The position numbers and the translations under genes are program-made. From positions 1 through 64,000 of the forward strand of contig CAIJLZ010000014.1 in NCBI GenBank assembly GCA_903821605.1: DNA of 64,000 nucleotides, in the 5' to 3' direction. This document shows positions 1-16,059 of this stretch, in pieces. The number at the start of each line of letters is the position of its first letter. Positions within the stretch are counted from its first letter, which is position 1. Source of the DNA: an uncultured Sphingomonadales bacterium. GTDB lineage: Bacteria; Pseudomonadota; Alphaproteobacteria; Sphingomonadales; Sphingomonadaceae. The notes below the pieces were generated by a model. The model was given only the letters and a program-made list of their open reading frames with translations, did no database searches and was not told the DNA's origin.

Positions 1-117
1 CCATCGAATATCGGCGCTTGCAACACCGCAAGCTTGCCGCCTAACATCAACCACCAGACGAGGCCCGCACTCCGCTAATCTACGCCGCGATCTGAGCCAA
101 ATGTTTTGACGACGGAC
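1..117. mobile_element. Possible right end of an IS-like element (window edge)
   Basis: A short reading frame enters from the window edge and stops at 42-44 (tail ...IEYRRLQHRKLAA). About 70 bp of non-coding sequence follows, ending ...GACGACGGACA, where the tRNA-linked repeat begins abruptly. An IS end abutting the repeat would explain why similarity to the right-hand copy starts sharply at 118. The IS family is not recognised and most of the element lies outside the window, so this is a weak inference. Confidence 0.3.
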
Positions 118-261
118 AATCGGGGCTTAGAGAACGGATTTGGCGTTCCAGCCGCAGGGGCCAGTCAACAGCCCATCGCCATAACCCTTGAATATAACGG
201 GTTTTTCGAATCCCATCTGGAATATAGAACGATTCCAATGAGATATGTGGCGGAGCGGGAG
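118..261. repeat. Left copy of the tRNA-Ser-flank direct repeat (candidate attL)
   Basis: These 144 bp align without gaps to 15724-15867, with about a dozen mismatches by eye. The last 14 bp (TGGCGGAGCGGGAG) equal the reverse complement of the tRNA-Ser 3' end including CCA. Beyond 261 the similarity degrades: a T-arm-like ATCGAACC is still visible a few bases on, but no complete tRNA is present. This is the pattern expected where an element inserted at a tRNA 3' end and left a partial copy at its far boundary. Confidence 0.75.
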
Positions 262-327: not shown

Positions 328-504
328 TTACGGGCGTTGATCAGTGCCCTTATTCGATTTGCGCCGCAAATCGCCTTTGCAGCGTTCCGAACAGGTTTTG
401 ACATTATCCCAATCACGCGCCCATTTCTTGCGCCAGGCAAACGGCCTGCCACAGGCCCCGCAGACCTTTGTTGGCAATTCAGTTTTTTGCCGCATTCTAG
501 CCAT
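328..504 (-). CDS. DUF2256 small zinc-binding-like protein
   Basis: This 58-residue ORF is missing from the ORF track. It reads MARMRQKTELPTKVCGACGR then PFAWRKKWARDW and a second cysteine pair (CSERC). The CxxC, the WRKKWxxxWxxVxxCSxxC signature and the length match the DUF2256 family, whose biochemical role is unknown. It starts 13 bp after the ABC1-kinase stop, so it is probably the last gene of that operon. As far as I recall, DUF2256 genes often neighbour photolyase/cryptochrome genes in proteobacteria; none is present here. Confidence 0.85.
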   Translation of the reverse strand: MARMRQKTELPTKVCGACGRPFAWRKKWARDWDNVKTCSERCKGDLRRKSNKGTDQRP

Positions 505-517
505 TTACTGCCTGCCT

Positions 518-1864: not shown

Positions 1865-2205
1865 TTGAGACTTGCCTGCAGCGTTGGCCTGACCTTCAGA
1901 AAGGCGAGATAGGCTCGTTCCAGCGCACGCGCGATGATGGGAATGCGCGCGGCCTGTCCCAGTGGCCAGAGGATTGGAACCGCGCGCCACATGGCAGCAA
2001 AGGCTTCGGCCCCTGATAGTAACACGCCGTTCTCGCTTGCATGGAACCGCGCCAAGAGGGTTTGCCGGTCAAGCGGGCAGATCGCGTCTGGCGGTGACAC
2101 ATCTTGGAATGTGATCGCGCCCCGCCGATCCAGCCATCGCATGAGCGCAATCTCGCGAGCGCAAAGCGGACAACTGCCATCAAACCACACAATTAAAATC
2201 GCCAT
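1861..2205 (-). CDS. DUF393 / DCC-family thiol-disulfide oxidoreductase
   Basis: This 114-residue protein opens with MAILIVWFDGSCPLCAREI, the DUF393 (DCC family) signature with its CxxC redox pair near residues 12-15. Members are predicted thioredoxin-fold proteins of unknown substrate. The ORF track extends it to 2250, but the ATG at 2205 puts the conserved strand at the true N-terminus. Its stop overlaps the start of the ABC1-kinase gene (ATGA), making it the first gene of a three-gene operon ending in DUF2256. A transposase remnant lies just upstream, so the native promoter may be lost or replaced. Confidence 0.85.
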   Translation of the reverse strand: MAILIVWFDGSCPLCAREIALMRWLDRRGAITFQDVSPPDAICPLDRQTLLARFHASENGVLLSGAEAFAAMWRAVPILWPLGQAARIPIIARALERAYLAFLKVRPTLQASLK

Positions 2206-2261
2206 GATAGCATCGCTACAGCCGTTGCTCTGAACTGTCAGCATGGGCATTCGGCCGTATT

Positions 2262-2404
2262 AAATAGAACTGAGAGTTTATGTGAAGCAGCGCCTGGGTG
2301 CGGCGCCAGTCCTTGAGTTTGCCGAACATGTTTTCGATCCTGTGGCGCTGGCGGTAGAGCGCAGTGTCGTAGGGAATATGGCCCGCGGTTCTATGGGCTA
2401 CCAC
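2262..2404 (-). pseudogene. IS5-family transposase C-terminal fragment
   Basis: Only about 45 residues remain, reading HIPYDTALYRQRHRIENMFG then KLKDWRR. That is the conserved C-terminal end (ExxxR-type block) of IS5-family DDE transposases. The upstream catalytic domain is absent and the reading continues into unrelated sequence after KDWRR. It lies directly upstream of the DUF393 gene on the same strand. I see no terminal inverted repeat, so this is a truncated relic. Confidence 0.8.
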
Positions 2405-2617
2405 TCAATGAAGAGCGGATCCTGCTGGTCCGGCAGGTGCTGGATGTTCCAGAACTATGCGACATAGGTGCGGAAAAAGTCGTACCTTTCCTTGCCGGCT
2501 CCACCCTAAATTGGAAAGATGCCGGAGACGCCGAATAACATCAGGATGGCAGTTGAGGCTTTATTTCAAGTTAGTCTGACTTCCGGTCTCAGTCGCATTC
2601 GGCCCCAAGCCTTCCCG
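2405..2617. other. Unassigned stretch between IS5 relic and lipocalin gene
   Basis: About 210 bp without a credible gene. The minus strand can be read as a short peptide-like stretch (YDFFRTYVA, stop, FWNIQHLPDQQ) with an in-frame stop. It could be a decayed gene fragment, but I do not recognise it. Confidence 0.35.
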
Positions 2618-3166
2618 TCAAGGGTGACGGGTCTGACGAACAATCGACCAGTCATACCCCAGCGACGCCACTCGCTGGCGGAGCATCTGTCTGACATCAT
2701 CTGCCGGATGGGCACTGCGCGACAGCACCCAGAGGTAACGTCCGGAAGGCTCACCTACGATTGACCATTGATAGTTGTCGTCATGGTCAAGCACCCAGTA
2801 GTCGCCATAAAAGGGCCAGAAGAAGGTGACTTTGAGCTTGGCATTGGTGGCGGGGTCCACGACCCGGGCCTTGCCAGTTGCGCTTGTCGCACGGCCATCG
2901 ACGGATACCTTACGGCAGCTGTTCAAGACCCTGATGGAGCCGTCCGGGTTCATGGAATAATCCGCAACCACAGCCTCGCAGTCCTTCTGGAACGGGGCTT
3001 CATAGCGATAGAGTTCGAACCAGCGGCCGAGATAGCGATCGAGATCGACGGACTTCGGGGGTTGCGGAACGTTGCGATTGCCCACGGGCCTCGATGAAAA
3101 ACTAGCGCATCCGGCCAGAGTGGCAAGCATAACTAGCAGGACCAGTTTCCCTCTGACGCTCTGCAT
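2618..3166 (-). CDS. blc: Outer-membrane lipocalin Blc
   Basis: This 182-residue bacterial lipocalin lipoprotein starts with a lipoprotein signal peptide (LVLLVMLATLAGCASF; lipobox LAGC, so Cys20 is the likely acylated residue). It then shows the first lipocalin motif (DRYLGRWFELYRYEAPFQ), a central FFWPFYGDYWVLDHD block and the C-terminal SGRYLWVLSR strand. Blc proteins sit in the outer membrane and bind fatty acids or lysophospholipids, often under envelope stress. The start is supported by an AAGGAG Shine-Dalgarno site. The upstream region is a truncated IS6 element on the same strand, so expression may now depend on IS sequence. Confidence 0.92.
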   Translation of the reverse strand: MQSVRGKLVLLVMLATLAGCASFSSRPVGNRNVPQPPKSVDLDRYLGRWFELYRYEAPFQKDCEAVVADYSMNPDGSIRVLNSCRKVSVDGRATSATGKARVVDPATNAKLKVTFFWPFYGDYWVLDHDDNYQWSIVGEPSGRYLWVLSRSAHPADDVRQMLRQRVASLGYDWSIVRQTRHP

Positions 3167-3184
3167 TACCTATCTCCTTGCCAT

Positions 3185-3396
3185 CACTCACCACGTTCCA
3201 GCGCTGCAACAATGTGCTGCGCTAACCGGTTCCACCAGAGCCGAACCGGCTCATGGCAGATGTCGATACCGCGCTCAAACAGCAAATCCTAGACGTTCCG
3301 CCGGCGCAGTGGAAAGCGGACATACATCATTACCGCCAGGCGTATCACCTCGGGCGAGGAGTTAAAGTAGCGGATCGGGATATCAGATTTACTCAT
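3185..3396 (-). pseudogene. IS6-family transposase N-terminal fragment (left copy)
   Basis: Reading from the ATG at 3396 gives MSKSDIPIRYFNSSPEVIRL then AVMMYVRFPLRRRNV, an in-frame TAG, DLLFERGIDICHEPVRLWWN and a second stop. This is the IS6-family N-terminal helix-turn-helix region, with nonsense mutations and the catalytic DDE domain deleted. The fragment ends against the lipocalin ribosome binding site. It is not the other half of the fragment at 6605-6913: both are on the minus strand and the N-terminal piece lies on the wrong side for one split gene. Confidence 0.85.
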
Positions 3397-3438
3397 CCAC
3401 CTGATTTGTCGCGGCCTCAGCCTGCAGGCAATTTTACT

Positions 3439-3449
3439 CTGACAACGCC
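3439..3449. repeat. Candidate inner terminal inverted repeat of left IS6 remnant
   Basis: CTGACAACGCC is the inverse of GGCG(C/T)TGTCAG found at 6541-6551, differing at one base in 11. It lies about 43 bp upstream of the truncated transposase start, a usual distance for an IS6-family end. Confidence 0.6.
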
Positions 3450-3472
3450 TGAGGATCGCCCCCCCCTAACGG

Positions 3473-4213
3473 TTAAAGCGAACTGCCACCGTCAACGCGG
3501 AATTCAGCGCCGGTTGTAAACGCTGATTCATCCGACGCGAGATAGACGGCCATAGCGGCAATTTCCTCCGGCTTGCCCAGCCGGCCAATGGGATGGCCTG
3601 CAACCCAGCCATCATACACGGCCTTGGGATCGTCTGTCTGGGCCAATACCTTGTCCTGGATCGGGGTAACGATGAGGCCCGGCAGGATCGTGTTGCAGCG
3701 AATGCCATAGCCCTGTCTAGCACAGTGCAGGGCAATGGACTTGGTCATGTGAATGACCGCCGCCTTGGCCGCATTATAGGCCAGCAGATCAGGTTGCGCG
3801 CGCACGCCACACATGGAGGAAATGTTGATAAGCGATCCGCCATGAGCCTTCATCAGCGGGATCGTGAACTTGCATCCCAGAAAGACGCCGATCGCATCGA
3901 TGTCCATTTCATGGCGGAACTGGTCCAGGGTCACGTCCTCGATCGAGCCGAACGTGGTAATGCCCGCATTGTTGACCACGACATCAAGCCGATCGACAGT
4001 CCGCAGAACCGACTGCCAGTCCGCCTCGCTGGTCACGTCAAGGCGGGCGAAACGGCTTGCTTCGCCAAGTTCGTCGGCCAGTGCCTGCCCTGCTGCCGCG
4101 TCGATATCAGCTATGATGACCGAGGCGCCTTCAGCCACGAAGCGGCGGACCATCGCCTCGCCCAGTCCTGACGCGCCACCTGTCACTAGTGTGTGCTTGC
4201 CTTGCAGTCGCAT
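3473..4213 (-). CDS. Short-chain dehydrogenase/reductase (SDR), cassette gene 3
   Basis: This is a classical NAD(P)-dependent SDR of 246 residues. It has the nucleotide motif TGGASGLGEAM near residue 12, NNAG near 88, a catalytic Ser in ISSMCG, the YNAAK Tyr/Lys pair near 152-156, and the C-terminal VDGGSSL. An acidic residue after the second strand (IIADID) favours NAD. Such enzymes oxidise alcohols on rings or acyl chains; the substrate cannot be read from sequence. It starts 14 bp after the flavoprotein gene and ends a three-gene minus-strand operon lying between two IS6 remnants. Confidence 0.88.
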   Translation of the reverse strand: MRLQGKHTLVTGGASGLGEAMVRRFVAEGASVIIADIDAAAGQALADELGEASRFARLDVTSEADWQSVLRTVDRLDVVVNNAGITTFGSIEDVTLDQFRHEMDIDAIGVFLGCKFTIPLMKAHGGSLINISSMCGVRAQPDLLAYNAAKAAVIHMTKSIALHCARQGYGIRCNTILPGLIVTPIQDKVLAQTDDPKAVYDGWVAGHPIGRLGKPEEIAAMAVYLASDESAFTTGAEFRVDGGSSL

Positions 4214-4227
4214 CTTTCCCTCCAGTG

Positions 4228-5640
4228 TTATGCGTTTTTATAACGATAAGCTGCGGCGCGTCGGCCTGCCTCACGGCCCAGCACCACCGCCGGGCCGATC
4301 GACATCCCGCCGCCGGCATATCGTTTGCCCATCAGCACGCCCAGCACTTCTCCGGCAGCGAAGAGCCCTGGAATGGGTACCCCCGCCTCGTCCAACACGC
4401 GACATTCGCGGTCGATATCCAGCCCGGCGCCGGTCACGCCGATGGTCGATGCCCGGACTTCGCAGGCGTAAAAAGGACCGGTCCGCACCGGGAAGGCCTT
4501 TTCCTCCTGCTGGAAGAAGTGGCTGTCGACGCGTGCATCACAGTCGGCGTTGTACTGTTCCACGCTGTAGGCCAGCGCGCGCGGGTCGAGTTTACATTTA
4601 ACGGCCAGCTGCTCCAGCGTTTCGCCAACAAGGATTTCGCCCTTGGCAACGCGCTTGCGAATGGTATCTTCTTCCCACGTTGGCAGATTGATGCCTGCGC
4701 CATAGGGATCAAGATAGCGAATATCATGGCTGGCGGTCCTAAGCGCGGCTTCGTCAAATATTGCCCATCCGCGCGCCTCGGGCTGCTCGTTCAGTGCATA
4801 GCCGGTGATGGAATAGCTCGCCATTTCCGGGATGAAGCGTCGGGCCTGAATGTTCACCAGCATGAGCCATGGCGGCAGGAACGGTTCAAGGTTCTTGCCA
4901 TGGCCGGAACTGGGCAACAGCAGCCCGGTATCGTGGCCGGTAATGGCCGCACCGATGCTTTCACCAAGGGTAATACCATCGCCAAGGATAAACGGCGCAG
5001 CATTATGCACGGCCCAGACCCGATCCCCGTGCTGGGCTGCGGTGGGATAAAAACGGGCGCGCATTTCCGGCGAGTTGCCGAACCCGCCGGTGGTCACCAC
5101 GACCGCAGGCGCGCGCAGTTCAACGCCAAGTGCGCGGATGCCCACTACCTGCCCGTTTTCGACTAGCAGGCCGTCCACACGTGTTGCCAGTGCGGTATCG
5201 ATGCCCAGCGCGCCCACGCGGTTAATCAGCACGTCGGCAATGCCTGATCCGGCACCGGCGCTGGGATGGGCACGGGGCACAGGCTCTACTCCGCCTTTCA
5301 CCAGCTGGGCCGGTGGGAACAGAGCGCCCAGCTCGATCAGCCATTCAAGGCACGGGCCGCTTTCATCGCAAATGACGCGAAACAGGTCCGGCTTGATGCG
5401 CCATTGGTTGATCGTCATGACATAATCGAACATGGCGTCGGCACTGTCATCATAGCCGCGAGCACGCTGCACGCTGGTGCCCGCAGCATAGAAAACCCCA
5501 CCCGATTGCGCTGTCGCACCGCCAAGTCTGGTGTCGGCCTCAAGAACCATGACCCGTGCACCGGCAAGGTGTGCCTCAATGGCGGCGCACATTCCGGCCC
5601 CCCCGCCACCAACAATAATTACGTCATAATCGTAAGCCAT
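4228..5640 (-). CDS. FAD-dependent oxidoreductase of the fumarate reductase / ketosteroid dehydrogenase family
   Basis: This 470-residue flavoprotein has an N-terminal dinucleotide fold (DVIIVGGGGAGMCAAIEA), the GGATAQSGG block, and a C-terminal FAD closure GLFAAGEVLGVLMGKRYAGG. The family includes fumarate reductase flavoproteins, 3-ketosteroid dehydrogenases and urocanate-reductase-like enzymes, which add or remove hydrogens at C=C bonds next to carbonyls. The ATG at 5640 (MAYDYDVII) is preferred over the upstream start at 5673, which would overlap the previous gene. It sits between two SDR genes (29-bp and 14-bp gaps), suggesting stepwise oxidation or reduction of one alicyclic substrate. 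Confidence 0.87.
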   Translation of the reverse strand: MAYDYDVIIVGGGGAGMCAAIEAHLAGARVMVLEADTRLGGATAQSGGVFYAAGTSVQRARGYDDSADAMFDYVMTINQWRIKPDLFRVICDESGPCLEWLIELGALFPPAQLVKGGVEPVPRAHPSAGAGSGIADVLINRVGALGIDTALATRVDGLLVENGQVVGIRALGVELRAPAVVVTTGGFGNSPEMRARFYPTAAQHGDRVWAVHNAAPFILGDGITLGESIGAAITGHDTGLLLPSSGHGKNLEPFLPPWLMLVNIQARRFIPEMASYSITGYALNEQPEARGWAIFDEAALRTASHDIRYLDPYGAGINLPTWEEDTIRKRVAKGEILVGETLEQLAVKCKLDPRALAYSVEQYNADCDARVDSHFFQQEEKAFPVRTGPFYACEVRASTIGVTGAGLDIDRECRVLDEAGVPIPGLFAAGEVLGVLMGKRYAGGGMSIGPAVVLGREAGRRAAAYRYKNA

Positions 5641-5669
5641 CTGATGGTCCTTTGGGATGCTTGAACCGA

Positions 5670-6443
5670 TCAATATTTGTAGGACTGTCCACCATCGATG
5701 GTGATGACGGCGCCGTTGACAAAATTCGCTTCACCCGACAGCAGGAACGCGGTGAGTGCCGCCACTTCCTCCGGACGACCAAAACGGCGCATCGGATTGT
5801 TTGAGACAAATTCCTGGCCCACGGCTTCCCAATTGTCGCCCCCGATCTGGCGCAGCGAGCCTTCGACCATCGCCGTAATAATCGCACCCGGCGCAATCGC
5901 GTTGATCTGGATGCCATATTGACCATATTCGACGGCGCTGTTGCGGGTCAGGCCGACCACGCCATGCTTGCTGGCAGCATAGCCCGACTGGTTGCCAACG
6001 CCGCGAATGCCGCCGACCGAGGCGCTATTGACGATAGCGCCATGCCCCTGTTCACGCATCACCTTCAATACTTCAGCCAGGCCGAAGAATACGCCATCGA
6101 GATTGACCTTGACCACGCGATGAAATTCATCCGCACCGAAATTTTCGGTCGGGTTCTGGCGGCCTTCGATCCCGGCATTGTTGAAAAAGGCATCAATCCG
6201 ACCAAAAGTCGCCATGGTTTTCGCCACATAAGCCTGCACATCTTCAAGCTTAGACACGTCGGCCGCCACGCACAGCGTTCTGGTGCCAGCGGGCAAGGTG
6301 GCGACCGCTGTTTCCAGAGCTTTATCCTGCAGGTCGACCATGACCAAGATCGCGCCTTCCTGCGCCAGACGCTGGGCCGTCGCCAGCCCCAGTCCAGCCG
6401 CCGCCCCCGTGATGATGACCACCTTATCGACAAAACGGTTCAT
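5670..6443 (-). CDS. SDR resembling levodione (cyclohexanedione) reductase
   Basis: This classical SDR has 257 residues: TGAAAGLGLATAQ cofactor motif, FFNNAGIEGRQNPTE, catalytic Ser in NSASVGGIRG, YAASKHGVVGLTRNSAVEYG around the Tyr/Lys pair, and C-terminal IDGGQSYKY. From memory, the NNAGIEG(R/K)QNPTE, SVGGIRG(V/I)GNQSGYAA and AIAPGAI blocks closely resemble the levodione reductase of Leifsonia/Corynebacterium aquaticum, which reduces a trimethylcyclohexanedione. An alicyclic ketone or alcohol is therefore a reasonable substrate guess. It is the first gene of the operon, with a GAGAGGAAAA ribosome-binding region. About 100 bp upstream lies an IS6 end that could supply a promoter. Confidence 0.88.
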   Translation of the reverse strand: MNRFVDKVVIITGAAAGLGLATAQRLAQEGAILVMVDLQDKALETAVATLPAGTRTLCVAADVSKLEDVQAYVAKTMATFGRIDAFFNNAGIEGRQNPTENFGADEFHRVVKVNLDGVFFGLAEVLKVMREQGHGAIVNSASVGGIRGVGNQSGYAASKHGVVGLTRNSAVEYGQYGIQINAIAPGAIITAMVEGSLRQIGGDNWEAVGQEFVSNNPMRRFGRPEEVAALTAFLLSGEANFVNGAVITIDGGQSYKY

Positions 6444-6604: not shown

Positions 6605-6913
6605 TCAGGCGACGAGCGACTGCCACTCGGCCAACGCGGCCGAGCGGCGAAGCTTGTAGGTTTGACGATCGACGAGATGGCGTTCCTGAGAAAAGTGATT
6701 GTGAAAGGAGGCGTGAACCGAGGCGAATTTCTGTATGCTTTTCATTCGCCGGAACCGCTGCATGGCGCGCTCTCGTCGTCGGAACTGGAGGTGGGAATTT
6801 TCTGCCCGATTGTTTAGCCAGCGCCCCATCTCGCGTCGGTCAAGATTGCCAAGTTCACGCATCGCCGCTGGGTAGGATCGCAGCCCATCGGTGACGATTA
6901 GGCTCCTGCGCAA
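6605..6913 (-). pseudogene. IS6-family transposase C-terminal fragment (right copy)
   Basis: The frame reads LIVTDGLRSYPAAMRELGNL, then NNRAENSHLQFRRRERAMQR and FASVHASFHNHFSQERHLVD to a natural C-terminus. This is the second half of an IS6-family DDE transposase, including the ExxxxxxR-type block. The N-terminal DNA-binding part and first catalytic residues are missing, and the track start is only a TTG inside the gene. It has the same orientation as the N-terminal remnant at 3185-3396, giving a degraded IS6-cargo-IS6 arrangement. Confidence 0.88.
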
Positions 6914-7170
6914 ACGGGCCGAAGCGGACCGTTCGTTAGCCTAACTAGGCTGCAACGGGTGCGCTATCGGTCAAACGTCAATATATGCTCACAGTTTGTG
7001 CGCAAAATCAGGCGTGTGACCGAAGTAATATATTGTATTAGATTAATATATTATTTTTGACCCCCGGTCGTTAATTCGCGGTTGCGTGAACTTTGGATCG
7101 GGGGCGGTTTCCCCCTCGAACCCTTTATAGTTTTACCCTCCCCCCCCGGGGGCGCGGAAATTCCCGCCAG
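6914..7170. other. AT-rich non-coding junction
   Basis: About 257 bp with no supported gene. A strongly AT-rich patch (ATATATTGTATTAGATTAATATATT, around 7028-7052) is unusual against the GC-rich surroundings. A C8G5 homopolymer run lies near 7139-7152, just past the primase stop on the minus strand. A weak GGGGG/CCCCC hairpin near 7100-7120 could end primase transcription. This is the junction between the catabolic cassette and the replication module. Confidence 0.4.
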
Positions 7171-10100
7171 TCAGGCCACCAACTCCGCGCCTGTCACCAC
7201 TTCGCAGTTGGCCAATGGCCCAAGCCGCTCGGTGAGCCACGCTGCCGGGTCCGGGATCAAATTCAGGTTGAACATCGAGGTCCGGACCTTCTGACCGGAT
7301 CCCTCAGGCCGGTAGGTCACCGCAGCCGAGGAGCGGGACATTTCGCTATTATAGAAGATCCTATAATAGCAATTTGTCCCGGTCCTCTGCCCGTCCTTCC
7401 GCGCCGCCTCGTAGTTTGGCCACAGGTCGGGGAAGCACTTCGCCCGGTCCGCGGCGTTGTCGAGAACTGCCCCGCGCACCGCCATCATGTCGGTGCGGTT
7501 GGGAACAAGGTCAGCCCAGTCGATCACCTCGTCTGCGGTGATGGGCAGGACGATATCCGTCAGCAGATCGACCTGAAGAGGGCTCTCGGCGGTGCGGTTG
7601 ACACCCCGGCCCCGTCCCAGCGCCTGAACCAGTTCAGCCTCACAGATATTCCAACGGATGGCCTCTGCAATCGGGTCGGGATGATGTTCCCCCATGACCA
7701 TGCGCGATCGACCATTAGGACGACGGATCACACGCTCGGTCAGCGGGTACCACCAGCTTTGGTTGTCATTATCCTCTTTGGGCGGCCGACCGGTGAGCGC
7801 AATTTGCAGCTTGGCGATCACGGCAGGTGCGGGAAGCGTGCGGCCCATGATGACCATGCCGGCGACAACGCCCCACCGATCGAGACCGCTCAGCGCGTTG
7901 AAGTGGGCGGTTTCCAGATTGGCCGGGAGTTCCCCCTCGGCGAGCGCCGCCATTGCCCGCATCTGTCCAATTGCGAGAACCGGCGCAGCGCCGCCACCAA
8001 TCTGTCTCGACCGGGCGGCAAGGTATGTCCGCAGGGCACGCAGGTTGTTGGCTGCAGTCGTGTGGTCCCGTTCTTTCGCCTGTGGCCCCGGCACCAGTGC
8101 CTTGCTGCTCACCGGGGCGCCCAGTACTTGGCGGATCCGCACATGCGGTGCTTTCGCGGCCACAGCGGGGGCGACGGCCATACCGGGCAGAAAGGGCGTA
8201 ACCAGTTCCTGCCGCATGGTCGCATCAATGTGCAGGACCGGGACCTTCTCGACCCACCCAGTCCGGATCGATGACCGCCACAGGAGGTCCAGCGACCTGA
8301 CCGTTCCATTGGGCGTATGCATCCTGCCCACCTGTACACCCCAGGCATCATGACCTGCCTCCAGCGCCTGGGCGAGGATTGACCACATCGCCGCGGCACG
8401 GCCCGGCGGAGCCCAGGCATGGCTGCGCCGCGGCATTACCGCGCTCAATCGCTTGGCGCGTTCCTCGGTGGACATGCCCGGCAGGATTTCCGGATCCCGG
8501 AGCCTGCCACGTTCGAGCTTTGCGGCATCCCGACAGATGGCAGAGGTCAACATTGCGGCCCGCAGGTCAGCCAGGCGCAGAGGACCTTGCCGGGTCCGCT
8601 CCAGCACCTTCCAAAGCTTCAGCCGGTGCTCGATCAGGAACTGGGTCTCGGGATAGTCATAGGCGTTCTTGTGGTCGTAGCAGCGCAGGTCCGCGTCATA
8701 GGGATCGAGGCTATCGACGGTAATCTGGACCGGATTATCGGCACCGCGAAGGCCGGACTGCCAGAACCCCTCGTCAATCACCAATAGTGCCGGCCGGCCG
8801 ATGGCCTTGGGCATGGCGTGGAACAGACTGTCATGCGCGCAGATGATCACCTGCACGGATTTGGCGAGCTGCTTCTGTCGCTGGTAGCCGCAAACTTCGT
8901 AATGCGGGCAATGGAAGATCTTGCTGTCGCGCTTCACCCCGCACACGGCCTGCTCGACCGATAGCTCGGCCGCCAGGGCATCGGCCTGCGCGTCGGGATC
9001 GCGGCACATGCGCTGGTCCGGATTGTCAGGTGCAGGATCGGGCGCGGTGCGTCCCTTCCATAGGACCGCAGCTATGCCCTCGGCAGCAAAGGCCGCAACC
9101 TGTTCTTCGCCCAGATCATGGCGCGGCACGGCAAAGACCACTTTGCCGCCGCTCAGCCTTTTGGCCGCCAAGGCCGTTATGATCTGCTCGCGCACCTGGC
9201 TGGTTTTGCCCAGCCCGACATCGACCGGCAGTCCCAGCATCGGTACCGGTGTGGTTTCGGCGCTCTCGGCATCATCCGGTTCTGCCAGAAGGTGATCGTG
9301 ATATGCGCTTGCGGCAGCCATGAACTCAGCTACCTGTCTGGCAAGTTCGGCGCGCGCCTCTGCGACATCATGACGGGGTTCGGGATAGGTCGGCTCACTG
9401 GCCGCCACCCACCGAGCCGAGGCAATACAGTCCCGCAGGGCTTGCTGACCCATCGCCTGCACGAGGTCATTCGCGTCGCCTGCGATCGGTGGAATGGCCA
9501 GCCGTGCATCAATGTCGCGCGCGGCCTGGGTCGCGGCCGTCACGCCCGGGTTGTCTGTGCGATCCGGCTTGTCGTCGTTGTCGGCGATGATTGTAAAGTC
9601 AGTCGTCGGATAACGCTGGCGTAGGACCCGGGCGACCCGCTGAAGGTTGCCAGCATCGAACGCGACAATCACCGGGTCACCTGTGACCTCATGGATGCTC
9701 GCCCCGGTTGCCCAACCTTCGCAGATCAGCAGATGGGGCGTGTCGGCAGCCCATTCGCCAATAACCGCAAAATGGTCGGCTTTGGCACCGCCGGTCAGAA
9801 ACCGCTTGTTGCCTTGCCGATCGATGCGCTGGAGCGTGTGGATGGCGCCGTTGATGTCGTGCAGGCCGATCACCAATCGCCCGGCCGTATCGATCAGGAT
9901 GCCGTGGGGCTGGATGCCCTTGGTGACCAGATAGGGATGGCCAGCTGGTGCCGGACTGGCCTCAGCAAGGACCTGCTGTGCCTCAACTCGGGCTTTCGCT
10001 GCCAGTTGTTCGCGGGAGGGTTCGGGAGCCTTGAGACGTGGTCTGGGAACCGCTTTGGGTGTCCCTGAGCCCGTTGGCCTGACACCGGTGCGTTCGGCGA

Positions 10101-10350
10101 CCCAGTCGCGGGCACGTTCCTGATCGCAGCCCAGTTCATGCGCAACGAGGGCGACAAATCCGCCGCCGTGTCCTGCCTCATGATCGAACCATTGTCCGGC
10201 CTTGGCACCGTCCACGCGGACCGACAGGCTGCCCTTACGTCGGTAGCGCCACTCTGTGCCCGTTTTGGCTGCTGGCTTGCCCAGAAGCTCGTGGAGAAGC
10301 TGTGGCAGCCGGTCGATCAATGCGGATTGGAATTGCGACGCGCCGCTCAT
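7171..10350 (-). CDS. Toprim-helicase fusion (primase-helicase-like island protein)
   Basis: This 1059-residue protein begins with a CHC2-like region lacking zinc ligands (YRRKGSLSVRVDGAKAGQWF then DHEAGHGGGFVALV, about residues 36-70). A Toprim domain follows at about 204-290 (LLICEGWATG; IIADNDD). The helicase part has a Walker A motif DVGLGKT near 377-383 and a Walker B-like LLVIDEGF near 522-528. Between them lie four cysteines (about 449, 470, 481, 487) followed by VIICAHDSLF, the same layout as the Fe-S insert of XPD/DinG helicases. Function is probably element replication or priming. It faces away from the recombinase operon, and a palindrome lies about 170 bp upstream. Confidence 0.82.
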   Translation of the reverse strand: MSGASQFQSALIDRLPQLLHELLGKPAAKTGTEWRYRRKGSLSVRVDGAKAGQWFDHEAGHGGGFVALVAHELGCDQERARDWVAERTGVRPTGSGTPKAVPRPRLKAPEPSREQLAAKARVEAQQVLAEASPAPAGHPYLVTKGIQPHGILIDTAGRLVIGLHDINGAIHTLQRIDRQGNKRFLTGGAKADHFAVIGEWAADTPHLLICEGWATGASIHEVTGDPVIVAFDAGNLQRVARVLRQRYPTTDFTIIADNDDKPDRTDNPGVTAATQAARDIDARLAIPPIAGDANDLVQAMGQQALRDCIASARWVAASEPTYPEPRHDVAEARAELARQVAEFMAAASAYHDHLLAEPDDAESAETTPVPMLGLPVDVGLGKTSQVREQIITALAAKRLSGGKVVFAVPRHDLGEEQVAAFAAEGIAAVLWKGRTAPDPAPDNPDQRMCRDPDAQADALAAELSVEQAVCGVKRDSKIFHCPHYEVCGYQRQKQLAKSVQVIICAHDSLFHAMPKAIGRPALLVIDEGFWQSGLRGADNPVQITVDSLDPYDADLRCYDHKNAYDYPETQFLIEHRLKLWKVLERTRQGPLRLADLRAAMLTSAICRDAAKLERGRLRDPEILPGMSTEERAKRLSAVMPRRSHAWAPPGRAAAMWSILAQALEAGHDAWGVQVGRMHTPNGTVRSLDLLWRSSIRTGWVEKVPVLHIDATMRQELVTPFLPGMAVAPAVAAKAPHVRIRQVLGAPVSSKALVPGPQAKERDHTTAANNLRALRTYLAARSRQIGGGAAPVLAIGQMRAMAALAEGELPANLETAHFNALSGLDRWGVVAGMVIMGRTLPAPAVIAKLQIALTGRPPKEDNDNQSWWYPLTERVIRRPNGRSRMVMGEHHPDPIAEAIRWNICEAELVQALGRGRGVNRTAESPLQVDLLTDIVLPITADEVIDWADLVPNRTDMMAVRGAVLDNAADRAKCFPDLWPNYEAARKDGQRTGTNCYYRIFYNSEMSRSSAAVTYRPEGSGQKVRTSMFNLNLIPDPAAWLTERLGPLANCEVVTGAELVA

Positions 10351-10522
10351 GCGAGCGCCCGCCTTCCACCCGGACGGGCGGTGAAAATTGGATCAGGAGA
10401 TTGTGCGCAAGCCACGCGTGTCGTGCCCTCGAAAGTTCAGAGGGCACGACAAAAGTCATCATTTTTGGGGCGCCGAAACGTTCCAAGCGGTCGCCGGTCA
10501 GAACCAGTTTCGGAGGTTCACA

Positions 10523-10541
10523 GGGTTGAACCGTTCAACCC
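10523..10541. promoter_or_regulatory. Palindromic operator candidate, copy 1
   Basis: GGGTTGAAC-C-GTTCAACCC is a perfect 9+1+9 palindrome. It shares at least 21 consecutive bases with a second site at 11388, and both lie upstream of minus-strand genes of the island module. A dimeric repressor site is the simplest reading. Confidence 0.65.
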
Positions 10542-10561
10542 TTCGGTGCGCAGATGCGATA

Positions 10562-10617
10562 TATCGATCACGAATTCGCCGTTTCATGATCGATAAGTCC
10601 GCCGGTTATCGATCACG
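10562..10617. repeat. Three TATCGATCA repeats (two direct, one inverted)
   Basis: TATCGATCACG occurs at 10562-10572 and 10607-10617, and its 9-bp core is inverted at 10587-10595. The spacing centre to centre is about 24 and 21 bp, near two helical turns. They could be iterons or regulator sites. Confidence 0.5.
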
Positions 10618-10618
10618 G

Positions 10619-11308
10619 CTACCAGCTACGCTTGCTGCCACCACGCTGCGAAGACGGCATGCGGATGATGGTCGCCATGGCCTTGGCGAGATTGGCCGAC
10701 AGCGGTTCGCCCTCGATGTGCTGATCCATGAACCAGTCGACCAACGCCTCTTTCTTCGACTGGTCCATATCGGTGATCCGATTCTCCGAGATCGCCAGTT
10801 TGATCAGTTCAAGATAGGGCGTGGTGTATTCGGTAGGCTCGATTGGCCTCTGCGGCGGCAACGTCCAGATCGCCTCGACCATGAACCGGGGCACCTGGAT
10901 GTCGATATATTCGCCATCCTGAAGTTCCAGCCGCTCGGGCAGGCTGCCGTCGTCCATATGCAGCACCCCGCTGATCCAGTGCTCTGGCGGGATCCAGACC
11001 AACTGGCTTGAGTGGAAGATCCACTCCCGCGCATCATGGTCCGGGAATGTGGGGTTGCGATGCTGTGAAAGGCGTCCTTGTGCGTGAACACTGCCTTGCC
11101 GCAACGCCTGCCAGAGCTGACGCTGCCCATCGAGATTGATGGTCTGCCACCGTGATGTTCCGGGTGCCGTTGGCGACAGGATCTTGCCGATATCGAGCTC
11201 AACCTTTTCACCCGTTGTCGCCTCGTACCGCACACGACAAATCCGGCAGATATGCTTGTAGGCTTGATTGAGGGACCAGGCGCTGTGGTTGAGTTTATCG
11301 ATAGGCAT
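10619..11308 (-). CDS. Uncharacterised island protein
   Basis: This 229-residue protein is not recognised. The ATG at 11308 (MPIDKLNHSAWSLNQ) is preferred over the TTG used by the track at 11356. An early C-x2-C pair (HICRICRVRY, near residues 21-24) could bind metal. The middle has DAREWIFHSSQLVWIPPEHW and a basic tail ends SQRGGSKRSW. There are no membrane segments and no signal peptide. It is transcribed toward the primase gene from a region carrying the second palindrome, so it is probably co-regulated with the primase. Confidence 0.65.
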   Translation of the reverse strand: MPIDKLNHSAWSLNQAYKHICRICRVRYEATTGEKVELDIGKILSPTAPGTSRWQTINLDGQRQLWQALRQGSVHAQGRLSQHRNPTFPDHDAREWIFHSSQLVWIPPEHWISGVLHMDDGSLPERLELQDGEYIDIQVPRFMVEAIWTLPPQRPIEPTEYTTPYLELIKLAISENRITDMDQSKKEALVDWFMDQHIEGEPLSANLAKAMATIIRMPSSQRGGSKRSW

Positions 11309-11387
11309 TTGCGTTCCGAATCGTGAGTGGGCGAGACTGGAACATAAATAGAACAATAATGCCCTGCAAGACCGCTACGGCGCAAAA

Positions 11388-11404
11388 GGTTGAACCGTTC
11401 AACC
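11388..11404. promoter_or_regulatory. Palindromic operator candidate, copy 2
   Basis: GGTTGAAC-C-GTTCAACC is a 17-bp perfect palindrome, identical to the core of the site at 10523 and sharing its downstream flank CCTTC. It lies 80-96 bp upstream of the unknown gene (minus strand) and 82-98 bp upstream of the recombinase operon (plus strand), so it could control both divergent units. Confidence 0.65.
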
Positions 11405-11485
11405 CTTCTGGGGGTAAGGCTGTGAACTACAGGAGAACCCCTTCGAACGTAGCGGTGAATGGCCTGATTCGGCGATCCTGCGGGC

Positions 11486-11740
11486 ATGATCAACGCCGAC
11501 ATTTCCATCACCGACGCCATGCCTCGGACCGGGGCGATGAAGCGTCCGAACGCGCTCCATCCCAGCCATATGAAGCCCGCCGAGCGGCGTGCCGAACTTT
11601 GCGCAATTCTGGGCTTGGGGATTGTCCGCCTGCACCTGCGCCGGGCGGGTCAACTATCTGAGGGAAGTGGAGACTTTCCGCTACACTTCGCTGCCGAACA
11701 GAGCGGTAGTGCAGTTCCAACTCGAAGGAGTGCTGCATGA
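11486..11740 (+). CDS. Small conserved protein at the head of the recombinase operon
   Basis: This 84-residue protein has the core MKPAERRAELCAILGLGIVR, followed by a low-complexity C-terminal half rich in Ser, Gly and His. I recall similar RRAELC..LA.GLVRL proteins upstream of DUF2924 genes in sphingomonad and rhizobial islands, but no function is known. Its TGA overlaps the DUF2924 start as ATGA at 11737-11740, which supports it as a real coupled gene. An internal start (MKPAERR, at 11570) is also possible. Confidence 0.7.
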   Translation: MINADISITDAMPRTGAMKRPNALHPSHMKPAERRAELCAILGLGIVRLHLRRAGQLSEGSGDFPLHFAAEQSGSAVPTRRSAA

Positions 11741-12189
11741 CCATAACCAACCCGATCCCGGCGCGCCTGGCTGCGCTGAAGACCATGTCAGGCACCGAAC
11801 TGAAGAAGCAGTGGCGCGCTCTGTTCGATACCGAGCCGCCGCTGTTCAACCGGCGCTACATCGAGACCAGGCTGGGCTACCGCATACAGGAACTGACCCA
11901 TGGCGGCCTCAAGCCCGAGACCGTGCGACGTCTGCAGGAACTGGGGGAACAACTGGACGGCGGGAACATCACCACCCGCCGCATCCGCACGGACCTCAAA
12001 CCCATCATCGGCACCCGGCTGATCCGTGAATGGCAGGGCACCGAGCACTGCGTGACGGTCACCCGCGACGGCTTTGAATGGCAGGGCCGGCCCTACAAAT
12101 CCCTATCCGCCATCGCCCGTACCATCACCGGCACGCGCTGGAACGGCTGGGTCTTTTTCGGTCTCAAGCACCACAGGAGGGCGGCATGA
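11737..12189 (+). CDS. DUF2924 domain protein
   Basis: This 150-residue protein has the DUF2924 pattern: LKKQWRALFDTEPPLFNRRY near residues 22-41, then RLGYRIQELTHGGL and a C-terminal strand-rich part (VTRDGFEWQGRPYKSLSAIA then ITGTRWNGWVFFGL). DUF2924 genes commonly sit directly before serine recombinases in alphaproteobacterial islands; their role is unknown, and a DNA-binding accessory factor is a guess. It is preceded by GAAGGAG and overlaps both neighbours by ATGA, so translation is coupled through the operon. Confidence 0.88.
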   Translation: MTITNPIPARLAALKTMSGTELKKQWRALFDTEPPLFNRRYIETRLGYRIQELTHGGLKPETVRRLQELGEQLDGGNITTRRIRTDLKPIIGTRLIREWQGTEHCVTVTRDGFEWQGRPYKSLSAIARTITGTRWNGWVFFGLKHHRRAA

Positions 12190-13481
12190 ACACGCCGGTC
12201 ACGCGCAAGCTGCGCTGCGCGGTCTATACGCGCAAATCATCGGAAGAAGGTCTGGAACAGGAGTTTAACAGCCTCCATGCCCAGCGGGAAGCCTGCGAGG
12301 CCTATATCGCCAGCCATCGCGGAGAAGGCTGGGTGCTGGTCCGCGATCAGTATGACGACGGCGGTATTTCCGGTGGCACGTTGGAACGCCCTGCGCTGCA
12401 ACGCCTGCTGGCGGACATCGAAGACGGATTGGTTGATGTCGTGGTGGTCTACAAGATCGACCGCCTGTCGCGCTCGCTCATGGACTTCGCCAAGCTGGTC
12501 GAGGTGTTCGATCGCAATGAGGTGACGTTCGTCTCCGTCACACAGTCGTTCAACACCACCAACAGCATGGGCCGCCTGACCTTGAACGTGCTGCTGTCAT
12601 TTGCCCAGTTCGAGCGCGAGGTGACCGGCGAACGCATTCGTGACAAGATTGCGGCCTCCCGCGCCAAGGGGATGTGGATGGGTGGCTGCCCGCCGCTGGG
12701 ATATGACGTGCAGGCCCGCAAACTGGTGGTGAACGACACCGAAGCTGCCCACGTCCGTTACATCTTCGACCAGTTCGCGCAGTGCGGTTCGGCGACAGTC
12801 ATGCTGCGGGACCTGCGTGACCGCGGGATCACCACCAAGCAGGGTGGGATCATTACCAAAGGGTTCCTGCACCGGCTGATGAGGAACCGGGTCTATCTGG
12901 GGGAAGCCGTCCACAAGGGCACCAGTTATCCCGGCGAGCACCAAGGGATCGTCTCCCAGGACGCCTGGGACAAGGTCCACGCCATCTTGATAGAAAGCCC
13001 CCGCAAGCGGGCGGCGCACACGCGCTGCAACACGCCTGCATTGCTCAAAGGCCTGCTCTGGGGACCGGACGGCGCAGCGTTCTCGCCGACCCACACCCGC
13101 AAGGGCGGCAAGCTTTACCGATACTATGTCAGCCAGTCCGTGCTGCGCCATGGCGCCGGTGCCTGTCCGGTCAGCAGGGTACCAGCCGCCGAGATCGAGA
13201 GCGCCATCATCGAGCAGTTGCGCGCCATCTTCCGTCAGCCAGAAATCATGGCTGGTTCGGCAAAGGCAGCCAAAGGCTATCTGCCTGTCATCACCGAAGA
13301 CGAAGCACGGGAAGCCCTGACCACGCTGGAGCCGATGTGGGACGAACTGTTCCCGGCCGAGCAGGCCCGCATCATGCAGTTGCTGGTCGAGCGGGTCGAC
13401 ATCGGCACCGACGGCTTTGACGTTCAGCTGCGGCTCGACGGCATGGCTACATTTGCACGCGAGATGAGGGAGGCAGCATGA
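12186..13481 (+). CDS. Large serine recombinase (resolvase/invertase family)
   Basis: This 431-residue large serine recombinase has an N-terminal catalytic domain with the nucleophile in CAVYTRKSSEEG (Ser18) and the conserved YKIDRLSRSLMDFAKLVEVF block. A recombinase domain follows from about residue 160 (GCPPLGYDV; HRLMRNRVYLGEAVHKG), then a long C-terminal region without an obvious CxxC zinc ribbon. It probably integrates and excises the element. The ATG at 12186 overlaps the DUF2924 stop; the longer track start at 12078 would run through DUF2924. Most tRNA-targeted islands use tyrosine integrases, so its link to the tRNA-Ser repeats is unproven. Confidence 0.92.
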   Translation: MNTPVTRKLRCAVYTRKSSEEGLEQEFNSLHAQREACEAYIASHRGEGWVLVRDQYDDGGISGGTLERPALQRLLADIEDGLVDVVVVYKIDRLSRSLMDFAKLVEVFDRNEVTFVSVTQSFNTTNSMGRLTLNVLLSFAQFEREVTGERIRDKIAASRAKGMWMGGCPPLGYDVQARKLVVNDTEAAHVRYIFDQFAQCGSATVMLRDLRDRGITTKQGGIITKGFLHRLMRNRVYLGEAVHKGTSYPGEHQGIVSQDAWDKVHAILIESPRKRAAHTRCNTPALLKGLLWGPDGAAFSPTHTRKGGKLYRYYVSQSVLRHGAGACPVSRVPAAEIESAIIEQLRAIFRQPEIMAGSAKAAKGYLPVITEDEAREALTTLEPMWDELFPAEQARIMQLLVERVDIGTDGFDVQLRLDGMATFAREMREAA

Positions 13482-13855
13482 CCGAGATCGTAACCGTCCA
13501 TGTCCCCTTCCACATTCGCAAGCGCGGCGGGCGCAAGGAGATGATCCTGCCCGACGCTGCGCTGGTCCAGCACCGCCATGTCGACAACACCCTGATCAAG
13601 GGGTTGGCGCGGGCATTCCGGTGGAAGCGGATGCTTGATGCCGGGGCTTGTCCTACCCTTGGCGATCTGGCCGCGAGCGAGAAGATCTCGCCCTCTTATC
13701 TGACCCGTGTCCTGCGGCTGACCTTGCTGGCGCCGGACATCATCGATGCGATCCTCGATGGCCAACTGGGGCCTGACACCACGCTGGCGACGCTGATGGA
13801 GCCGTTCCCGGTCGATTGGGATGCGCAACGCCAGCATTTTGCGATGTGCGCTTAA
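13478..13855 (+). CDS. Small HTH protein (ParB/KorB-like motif) coupled to the recombinase
   Basis: This 125-residue protein has an N-terminal VTVHVPFHIRKRGGRKEMIL segment and a central helix-turn-helix (LGDLAASEKISPSYLTRVLR then LTLLAPDIIDAIL, about residues 67-99). That spacing resembles the ParB/KorB family HTH. It could regulate the operon or act as a recombination directionality factor. Its ATG overlaps the recombinase TGA, and its own stop overlaps by 4 bp the stop of the convergent SEC-C gene, so nothing is wasted at this junction. Confidence 0.75.
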   Translation: MTEIVTVHVPFHIRKRGGRKEMILPDAALVQHRHVDNTLIKGLARAFRWKRMLDAGACPTLGDLAASEKISPSYLTRVLRLTLLAPDIIDAILDGQLGPDTTLATLMEPFPVDWDAQRQHFAMCA

Positions 13856-15507
13856 CCTGCAGTTGTGCCATCGTCAGCGGCGCCATCAGACGGCGGTCTA
13901 AAGGCCGCCTGAGCTAACGCAGACTTGGTCCACTCACGGCAAACCCGAATACGAAGGGCCTCTGTCGAAAGCTTTGAATAAGCTGCCGACTCCAGGTGGT
14001 TGGAAATGAACTCAAGCAGTTTCTCCCTTGGCGTGTTCGCGTATACCTTAAGGAAGAAGTCGTAGAACCCGAGTGGGTCTTTCTCTGATATGAGTTCATG
14101 TTGATCAGGGTTTCCGAAAACTGCATCCCCGAGCACCGCTGCCGCCTTCTGCTCTTTCTCCGTGAGGGGAAGTTGAACAATCCGTTGTTTGCCGGTTGCC
14201 TCTTCCATAAGCCTGATTGTCGCGTTTGGTCCGTTCGAGAGGACGTCGATCACCAGCCCCTTTACAAACTGTTGGTCAGACGTCGTGACCTCAAGACGCT
14301 GCCCCACACGCAACCGGACAATTGGCTCGTGATCCGGGCTGATGAGATCGTCAGGCTGGCCATCAAACCGGTGCGGGATCATCTGCACCTTGCGAATACA
14401 GTCGAAAATCCACAAAACATCGCGATCGCGGTCCCGCTCGTCCATAGCTAGCTCGATCTCGACCTGCTCGCCATTGACGTGCATCGGGATGTGGAAGCCC
14501 TCGAGCATGTATAAGCAGGAGGCGTCACCGCCAGCCAGGAATCCGTGGCTTGTGATGAACACGTAGGCAGGCCCCGGGCGTTCGCCGTCAATGAGAATGC
14601 GCTCCTCGGCTTCCCGCAGGGCGGTTCTCAAGAGCAACTGCAATGCCTCAGTCTGCTGCATTTCCTCGACGTTTGGGATCGAAAGCTCGAACCAGAATAC
14701 CGGGTTAGTCAGCCGCTTGCTTGAGGCGTCGCGGAGCTTTCGCTCCAACCAGATCGTCAATTCTCGGCGAAAGTCAGGGTTTGCAATGTCGACTTGGCTG
14801 CTCCAGCCGTTCTTCCGCTTGGCTTCGACATCGTAGGTCCTTCCAGACCTGATCGACGTCGCCCGAAACTCGCCCTCGGGGCCCGCCCCCTTTTGCGTCT
14901 CGCCCATCTCAAGCTTGGCGCCTGCCAGAGCGAAGGTAGCGAAAGCAATAGTCTCGACCACCGCCGACAGGAATTCATTCGGCTGCCTTAGCCTTCGGAT
15001 TAAGGTCGGCGGGATCTGGTCATGATGTGCAATTAGATAGAGGGCGTAAGCAAACCGGAAAACCGCGATCGCGACTCCTTCACCGCACGCAACGAGCATG
15101 TCGCCCTCCGGCGCTTTGTATTTTTGGGCCGCGTGATTCATTTGGCGTAGCCACTTGAACAGCGGATGCGTGTCGCCCTGAGCTCCCATCTTGGTCCCCC
15201 AGCCACGCCCAAGCACATCCTTCATGTGAAAGAGGAGGAAGTCAGTGAAGAAGCGCCAGTTCCGGTCATAGTAAATACGATTGCCGACAGCGACGATGCG
15301 ATGGTCCTTGAAGTCGGTGGAAATCATCGGTCGTCCGTGGCCTTCGGCGCGCGTGCGAAGCATCTCCCTTGCCTTCATGGCGCGCCATGAGGCCTCGACC
15401 TCAATCGCCATGCGCGGCGGCGCCTGCCTTGTGATAGCTCCGTGGCAACGCTTGTACTTGTTTCCATTGCCGCACGGGCAAGGTTGATTTCGGCCAATCT
15501 TCGCCAT
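13852..15507 (-). CDS. SEC-C motif protein, candidate PD-(D/E)XK nuclease (island cargo)
   Basis: This 551-residue protein opens with a SEC-C zinc motif (IGRNQPCPCGNGNKYKRCHG, residues 4-23). A helical region follows, then PEGEF at about 210-214 and, 13 residues later, TYDVEAKRKN. The E-x12-16-ExK pattern, with the second motif on a predicted strand, suggests a PD-(D/E)XK endonuclease-like site. The C-terminal half is unrecognised. It stands alone on the minus strand between the recombinase operon and the island end, a usual cargo position for defence genes. The ATG at 15507 is preferred to the TTG two codons earlier. The SEC-C call is firm; the nuclease call is inferred. Confidence 0.72.
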   Translation of the reverse strand: MAKIGRNQPCPCGNGNKYKRCHGAITRQAPPRMAIEVEASWRAMKAREMLRTRAEGHGRPMISTDFKDHRIVAVGNRIYYDRNWRFFTDFLLFHMKDVLGRGWGTKMGAQGDTHPLFKWLRQMNHAAQKYKAPEGDMLVACGEGVAIAVFRFAYALYLIAHHDQIPPTLIRRLRQPNEFLSAVVETIAFATFALAGAKLEMGETQKGAGPEGEFRATSIRSGRTYDVEAKRKNGWSSQVDIANPDFRRELTIWLERKLRDASSKRLTNPVFWFELSIPNVEEMQQTEALQLLLRTALREAEERILIDGERPGPAYVFITSHGFLAGGDASCLYMLEGFHIPMHVNGEQVEIELAMDERDRDRDVLWIFDCIRKVQMIPHRFDGQPDDLISPDHEPIVRLRVGQRLEVTTSDQQFVKGLVIDVLSNGPNATIRLMEEATGKQRIVQLPLTEKEQKAAAVLGDAVFGNPDQHELISEKDPLGFYDFFLKVYANTPREKLLEFISNHLESAAYSKLSTEALRIRVCREWTKSALAQAAFRPPSDGAADDGTTAG

Positions 15508-15723
15508 GCGCAAATGTTATGCGCGTATCGCTTCAAGCTCTAGTGGCACGTGAGCTTGATGAACCCGTTTCCGACCGATTGGGCAGAACAAATGTTAGAT
15601 GCGAGGCACTTTCGATAATGGCCGGACTCTGATCGAACGCAAAAGCCGATGCCCGGAAATCTGTATGAATACAGTCTATTGCGGGCATTCACCGACGCGT
15701 CCGCAGGCAACAGCTTTGGAGAT
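15508..15723. other. Non-coding stretch inside the island right end
   Basis: About 215 bp between the SEC-C start and the right repeat. It must hold the SEC-C promoter. A short inverted repeat (CTGTATGAATACAG, 15660-15673) is visible but no gene. Confidence 0.4.
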
Positions 15724-15867
15724 AATCCGGGCTTAGAGAATGGATTTGGCGTTCCAGCCGCAGGGGCCGGTCAACAGCCCACTGCCATAACACTTGAATA
15801 TAACGGGCTTTTCGAGACCCATCTGGAATATAGAATGATTCCAATAGGATATGTGGCGGAGCGGGAG
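15724..15867. repeat. Right copy of the tRNA-Ser-flank direct repeat (candidate attR)
   Basis: This matches 118-261 over 144 bp without gaps. Its last 14 bp are the 3' end of the intact tRNA-Ser gene. It differs from the left copy at about 12 positions, so the duplication is either old or the two copies came from related but different genomes. Confidence 0.75.
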
Positions 15868-15944
15868 GGATTCGAACCCTCGATACGGTTTTGCCGTATA
15901 CTCACTTTCCAGGCGAGCGCCTTCGACCACTCGGCCACCGCTCC
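15854..15944 (-). tRNA. tRNA-Ser(GGA)
   Basis: The minus strand reads GGAGCGGTGGCCGAGTGG... with a 7-bp acceptor stem (GGAGCGG/CCGCTCC), discriminator G, an encoded CCA, a GGTTCGAATCC T-arm and a long variable arm (TATACGGCAAAACCGTAT) typical of class II serine tRNAs. The anticodon loop CTGGAAA gives anticodon GGA, for UCC and UCU codons. It lies at the right end of the island repeat, so it is the probable integration target and was kept intact. Confidence 0.96.
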
Positions 15945-16059
15945 GCATGCTCTGGTAAGGCCGTCCCTCTATCGTGGCACTGGGCGGGGCGCAACCGGAA
16001 ACAATGGAAATCGTAAGACTTGTCGCACTTGGGTGATTTGTCCCGGCGTGCGGGCGCTG

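Follow-up and report, generated by a model that had tools for sequence, protein, structure and literature searches.

The 64,000-nucleotide stretch of DNA analysed here (the window) comes from an uncultured Sphingomonadales bacterium (assembly GCA_903821605.1, contig CAIJLZ010000014.1) and carries a mobile island that encodes a Toprim domain and an XPD/DinG-like helicase in one protein. We consider it probable that this protein is a single-chain primase-helicase that replicates the mobile element. In related prophages, plasmids and islands, this helicase is combined with primases of different kinds, and it is therefore probably a replication enzyme of such elements. A first-pass annotation, made from the sequence alone, had proposed the fusion of a Toprim protein to a helicase, and both parts were recovered, the former as a Toprim_3 match and the latter as an XPD/DinG-like C-terminal half. 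The landmarks that it had listed, namely Walker A, four cysteines, a VIICAHDSLF segment and the DE-box, were each found in the translation where it had placed them, with VIICAHDSLF starting at residue 501.

Four conserved cysteines and the fold of the helicase half

The window protein contains 13 cysteines, but only C449, C470, C481 and C487 are conserved, and the other nine vary freely. Homologues were collected from genomes of the GTDB, plasmids and IMG/VR contigs; the IMG/VR relatives were found by scans of viral contigs with the alignments A4 and A5, whereas the same scans with the single proteins L027, L028 and L033 as queries gave no matches. All four cysteines were kept in 24 of 24 homologues of the first alignment (22-87% identity), in 37 of 37 of a second set and in 41 of 41 of a third, again at 22-87% identity. 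An apparent gap at C481 of L021 in the 24-sequence alignment turned out to be an alignment slip with a cysteine nearby, and in L043, a longer version of the same protein, all four cysteines align in the 41-sequence set. Thus, the check on conservation that had been proposed along with the original assignment found no homologue without the cysteines, even at 22% identity. Chance cysteines were ruled out, because precisely these four are conserved in every homologue set.

In the profile alignment, the four cysteines fall on the cysteines of Thermoplasma acidophilum XPD, which are spaced 21, 15 and 36 residues apart; the published iron-sulfur (Fe-S) ligands of XPD are Cys92, Cys113, Cys128 and Cys164 (PMC2435149). 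The first spacing, X20, is the same in both proteins. When the family was aligned end to end with DinG, the last two cysteines (the X5 pair and the segment following it) came to lie on the last cysteine pair of DinG, and the first two were unaligned. The cysteine order of XPD, DinG and Rad3 that the first-pass annotation had recognised was thereby supported by the XPD ligand alignment. The four-cysteine insert is a predicted [4Fe-4S] site, and by analogy with XPD and DinG the protein may bind such a cluster.

The structure of the helicase half (residues 365-1059) was modelled with AlphaFold2, using 36 diverse sequences as input. The model had a mean local confidence score (pLDDT) of 87 and a global score (pTM) of 0.84; an input of six close sequences yielded a pLDDT of 41 and was not used. 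A Foldseek search of the Protein Data Bank (PDB) with this model retrieved XPD (E-value 2.2e-12), DinG (2.8e-11) and CasDinG (4.3e-8). The top 18 matches were all XPD, DinG, CasDinG, XPD of TFIIH or Hna, and the first match from another family was UvrB (5.9e-5). The structural comparison with DinG and XPD that had been recommended as a check thus placed entries of the XPD family first in the PDB, ahead of UvrB. The alignments to XPD and DinG covered 643-745 columns at about 11-13% identity. In XPD and DinG, the Arch domain is located between DExx and motif III (PMC6300356; PMC3702460), and the long insertion of the window protein at this position may be its counterpart.

Sequence comparisons pointed in the same direction. 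The features of a superfamily 2 (SF2) helicase are present in order, with Walker A, DExx and a predicted SF2 fold. A profile of 24 helicase halves matched T. acidophilum XPD (about 5e-4) and Escherichia coli DinG (6.5e-3) in the PDB; matches to Mfd had a similar E-value, but were confined to the Walker A region and thus reflect the common SF2 core. In one comparison with hhalign, the stretch between Walker A and DExx was matched to an alignment of alphaproteobacterial DinG proteins with 90% (E-value 1.5e-6, 153 columns), versus 71% over 59 columns of the Walker region for the control RecG and 6% over 45 columns for the control UvrB. The later motifs are collinear in the end-to-end alignment (SATL of DinG with LDAT, and QAFGRLIRR with QALGRGRGVNR), the real weight lying in the first stretch only. 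The PHROGs family phrog_2488, 'DNA helicase', was touched by 11 of the 24 members (best 4.7e-9) and by the window member not at all, and the Pfam family DEAD matched 16 of 24, mostly weakly. With the window protein alone, a single-sequence PDB search returned chance matches only, Pfam gave no match in the C-terminal half, and NCBIfam gave one faint match to DinG (residues 467-528, E-value 0.061). No family of Pfam or NCBIfam describes this helicase half.

An ordinary DinG-family helicase is encoded on the host chromosome (G000:C18:17671-19578, E-value 1.5e-42), so that the island protein is not the sole DinG-type helicase of its host.

The primase half and its different arrangements

The Pfam family Toprim_3 (PF13362) matched residues 207-302 with an E-value of 3.4e-12 and 47.1 bits (cut-off 27.2). 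In PHROGs, primase families together span residues 40-331, and the DNA primase family 2249 alone matched residues 43-331 (4.8e-61). Over residues 40-312 the window protein is 29% identical to the P4 alpha protein (about 5e-14). The acidic motifs EGWATG, DAGN, DND and GDANDL are kept in close homologues in the alignment of Toprim members, and DAGN deviates in two distant members, L027 and L069. Upstream of the Toprim domain, the sequence resembles the N-terminus of phage and plasmid primases such as P4 alpha. The label 'CHC2-like' that this half had originally been given had to be withdrawn: Pfam yielded no match to a CHC2 model and residues 1-206 lack a set of zinc-ligand cysteines, which rules out a CHC2 zinc finger at the N-terminus. 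No model of an SF3 (superfamily 3) helicase domain matched the window protein in the Pfam scan.

The helicase half is coupled to primases in several ways. In the window protein, L002, L024, L016, L026, L048 and others, it is joined to a Toprim domain in one chain. Prim-Pol, Toprim and helicase are combined in L003 and L006 (Pfam) and, by homology to L006, in L005. A Prim-Pol domain without Toprim was found by Pfam in L031/L094, L043, L044, L081, L082 and L088, and L084-L087 were put into this class by their position in the clade. Finally, a separate adjoining Toprim gene is annotated next to L030 and was recognised by similarity next to L062-L066 and L007. A tree of 41 helicase halves required 13 changes of architecture versus 25 in shuffles, the labels being uncertain for a few rows on long branches and some 'helicase alone' entries possibly having an unrecognised primase nearby. 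The subclade of the window protein mixes proteins with and without Prim-Pol, which indicates that the domain was gained or lost recently; a leftover Prim-Pol was searched for upstream of the window gene and none was found. The first-pass annotation had called the fusion an uncommon replication module. The term 'uncommon' did not hold, as the arrangement recurs as a module in prophages, plasmids and islands of Alphaproteobacteria. As for the whole group, we see an about even chance that the replicative helicase of these elements comes from a clade of its own among the Fe-S helicases of the XPD/Rad3 type, and that this clade has more than once been paired with primases of unrelated kinds (Toprim, Prim-Pol or both).

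Two further observations concern the relatives. In the islands L003, L005 and L006, whose primase includes Prim-Pol, a gene for an AAA_14/DUF4143 ATPase lies on the opposite strand between orf245, a conserved companion gene, and the primase-helicase gene. In the tree, branches of 0.026 and 0.024 separate the nearly identical helicases of the Bacillus safensis plasmid L028 (NZ_CP015609.1) and of L029, a plasmid of Roseomonas mucosa, and the Bacillus record may thus be a contaminant or misassigned.

The mobile island

The location on a mobile island, also part of the initial assignment, was supported by a serine recombinase gene, a DUF2924 gene and direct repeats that reach the 3' end of a tRNA-Ser gene (Table 1). 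A block of orf125, the serine recombinase gene, the DUF2924 gene, orf245 and the primase-helicase gene recurs in most close relatives. In six sphingomonad copies, the conserved block corresponds to about 7040-13828 of the window, and its right end abuts a homologue of the tRNA-Ser region (window 15557-15947) where the sequence covers that part. The 147-bp repeats ending at the tRNA-Ser gene fit an island of 15.7 kb. In two genomes of the same genus, homology to the window begins at the 3' end of the tRNA-Ser gene, but these genomes do not share the opposite flank. On the contig of the window, 114 bp precede the far repeat.

Several IMG/VR relatives carry genes for a ParB-like protein/DNA methyltransferase and for the large or small terminase subunit downstream, which indicates that some members are prophages. 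An intact prophage was ruled out for the window element, because no structural genes lie beside it in the window block; its primase-helicase gene also has no ParB-like/methyltransferase or terminase gene as a neighbour. One distant homologue of the whole primase-helicase, L035, is encoded on a circular plasmid record of 4170 bp from an uncultured bacterium (JX202564.1); it is the sole annotated gene, labelled 'TraC', and the only open reading frame (ORF) above 220 codons.

Table 1. Features of the primase-helicase gene, its island and related islands (window coordinates unless a locus is named)
Feature	Position	Strand	Remarks
Primase-helicase gene	7171..10350	(-)	1059 aa, intact ORF
N-terminal part, residues 1-206	9733..10350	(-)	phage/plasmid-primase-like; without CHC2 zinc ligands
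Toprim_3 domain, residues 207-302	9445..9732	(-)	motifs EGWATG, DAGN, DND, GDANDL
XPD/DinG-like SF2 helicase half, residues 365-1059	7174..9258	(-)	model, Foldseek, profile search
Walker A GLGKT, residues 379-383	9202..9216	(-)	G381 and K382 invariant in 37/37
Four-cysteine insert C449-X20-C470-X10-C481-X5-C487, predicted [4Fe-4S] site	8890..9006	(-)	41/41; XPD ligand alignment
Motif II VIDEGF (DExx), residues 524-529	8764..8781	(-)	D526 and E527 invariant in 37/37
Insertion of about 180 residues, largely helical, between motifs II and III (putative Arch-domain position)	8236..8763	(-)	model secondary structure
Motif III-like LHIDAT, residues 706-711	8218..8235	(-)	homologue alignment
Motif VI QALGRGRGVNR, residues 909-919	7594..7626	(-)	Q, R, R invariant; collinear with DinG QAFGRLIRR
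orf245, conserved companion, no assigned function	10619..11356	(-)	neighbour of the gene also in islands of sphingomonads and in relatives from IMG/VR
DUF2924 gene	11737..12189	(+)	PF11149, 4.5e-51
Large serine recombinase (Resolvase, Recombinase, Zn_ribbon_recom)	12186..13481	(+)	ATG overlaps DUF2924 stop
orf125	13478..13855	(+)	conserved along with recombinase
tRNA-Ser(GGA), putative integration target	15854..15944	(-)	
Direct repeat, 147 bp, putative far attachment-site copy	115..261	(+)	91% identical to 15721-15867
Direct repeat, 147 bp	15721..15867	(+)	ends in tRNA-Ser 3' end
AAA_14/DUF4143 ATPase gene of related islands	L003 2615-3868; L005 7880-9133; L006 7937-9097	opposite strand	

The 17-bp palindrome GGTTGAACCGTTCAACC (8-bp arms) flanks orf245 at positions 10524-10540 and 11388-11404. 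These are its only two copies in the genome; related islands carry it as well (L003, L004/L041 and L036), and it is a possible operator or origin element. Positions 6605-6913, which adjoin the conserved block on its left side, encode a fragment of a DDE transposase of the IS6/IS240 type, namely its C-terminal part. Provided that the 147-bp repeats mark the ends of the island, its cargo at 106-6443 comprises an ABC1-like kinase, a DCC1-like oxidoreductase, a lipocalin, two short-chain dehydrogenases and an FAD-binding oxidoreductase. To the right, a 553-residue protein with a SEC-C motif is encoded between the block and the tRNA-Ser gene (13852-15513); related islands do not have it at this place, and no homologue was found among the related loci compared.

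Alternative explanations, proposed mechanism and known systems

Several results weigh against an assignment to the XPD/DinG group and against a role in replication. The DinG model NF008729 scored the window half with 12.7 bits versus a cut-off of 598 (best member 8.1e-4), and the DEAD_2 model PF06733 stayed far under its cut-off, with a best E-value of 0.0063 and matches to 2 of 24 members. The curated cut-offs for DinG and XPD were thus not reached, and the family is accordingly filed as XPD/DinG-like, not as DinG. Motif II reads DEGF or DESF, not DEAH, and motif III reads LDAT. The TM-scores of the Foldseek matches were just 0.33-0.45, with a root mean square deviation near 10 Å over multi-domain alignments, which reflects either the rigid-body alignment of multi-domain models or a divergent family. 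A short pair of strands is predicted between C470 and C481, whereas the Fe-S domain of XPD is all helical (PMC2435149). With regard to function, the Ppol protein of the Thermus element ICETh2 is dispensable for replication of the element and limits DNA uptake (PMC7693054).

The strand pair could also occur in a small zinc fold, and the nature of the metal is not visible to computation. The four cysteines might therefore form a zinc site in a protein that remains an SF2 helicase-primase. We regard this as unlikely: the pattern C-X20-C-X10-C-X5-C lacks the CxxC knuckles typical of zinc ribbons, and both the position in the helicase and the alignments fit the XPD ligands and, for the X5 pair and the segment after it, the last DinG pair, so that a zinc ribbon appears disfavoured. 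Still less likely is a placement of the helicase half in the SF2 group of UL9/T4-phage-like helicases described behind the all3500-like Prim-Pols. Kazlauskas et al. report that Prim-Pols of mobile elements are fused to distantly related SF2 helicases from this group (PMC5862659), and origin-binding proteins of herpesviruses were among the viral fold matches (1.1e-5; the best viral match overall, the entry A0A1P8DJ66 of 1085 residues, had 1.6e-15). However, the matches to DinG and XPD were far stronger in the PDB, phage DinG-like proteins ranked above UL9 in the viral fold database BFVD, and both the insert with four cysteines and the long insertion that separates motif II from motif III are features of the XPD type.

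A third explanation sees the protein as element cargo that acts in defence or interferes with DNA uptake. DinG-like helicases are known from type IV CRISPR and pPIWI-RE systems (PMC3702460), and the Thermus Ppol is a precedent for an effect on uptake. Nevertheless, we judge this improbable. The block from the recombinase to the primase-helicase is conserved while the flanks differ, which marks a core gene and not variable cargo; a homologue is the lone large gene on a small circular plasmid record; and the partners are primases, not nucleases.

A primase-helicase that replicates its element might work as follows. The C-terminal half would be an XPD/DinG-type SF2 helicase built on two RecA domains. 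Between motifs Ia and II it would carry the four-cysteine Fe-S domain, and between motifs II and III an insertion that resembles the Arch domain. It would come into play once the serine recombinase has excised the element, or while a phage or plasmid replicates. Like XPD and DinG, it would presumably move 5' to 3' on single-stranded DNA and would thus ride on the lagging-strand template, on which the fused N-terminal Toprim half would synthesise and lay down primers. This layout would resemble those of T7 gp4 and DnaB-DnaG, but the motor would be an Fe-S SF2 enzyme rather than a hexameric ring. Polarity, priming and the role in island replication are proposed by analogy with XPD/DinG, P4 alpha, T7 gp4 and the SCCmec precedent.

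The primase-helicases known from phages and from mobile elements contain, to our knowledge, ring-forming helicases of SF3, superfamily 4 or the AAA+ class. The novelty here would be an Fe-S-type SF2 motor of the XPD kind that is physically joined to a primase. A 2025 review distinguishes ten subgroups of bacterial DinG-like proteins, and the words 'primase' and 'Toprim' do not occur in its main text (PMC11981726). If the protein is a replication enzyme, as is probable, no description of its kind was found in the open PMC papers searched, although an earlier mention elsewhere is possible. If the proposal is true, DNA replication would be added to the roles of the XPD family, and Fe-S SF2 helicases of repair, transcription and defence would gain a second life as replication-fork motors. 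A compact single-protein system would be at hand for asking what the Fe-S cluster does at the fork, and replication of the element might be sensitive to iron or oxidative stress. Many proteins that are at present labelled only 'hypothetical', 'DEAD/DEAH box helicase family' or 'toprim domain-containing' could also be given a possible function.

XPD, DinG and YoaA are the best structural and profile matches and share with the window family Walker A, the four-cysteine insert, DExx, the long insertion before motif III and QxxGRxR; the window family differs in its DEGF/DESF and LDAT motifs and in being fused or adjacent to primases. P4 alpha is likewise a primase-helicase of a mobile element, and its Toprim half is homologous to that of the window protein, but its helicase is of SF3, whereas the helicase half studied here is XPD/DinG-like SF2. 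T7 gp4 also has a Toprim primase and a replication helicase in one chain; its zinc-binding domain of the CHC2 type and its hexameric helicase of the RecA type, however, are both absent from the window protein. The all3500-like Prim-Pols are mobile-element primases fused to SF2-like domains, but in the part of the source considered the helicase is described as UL9-like and a four-cysteine insert is not mentioned (PMC5862659). In the replication module CCPol-MP-Cch2 of SCCmec, an integrative element, the genes for a primase and a helicase likewise lie next to that of a large serine recombinase (PMC7581432). The recombinase encoded in the window is a relative of CcrB, but in SCCmec an A-family polymerase with MP acts as the primase, and the helicase is oligomeric and moves 3' to 5' (PMC7581432).

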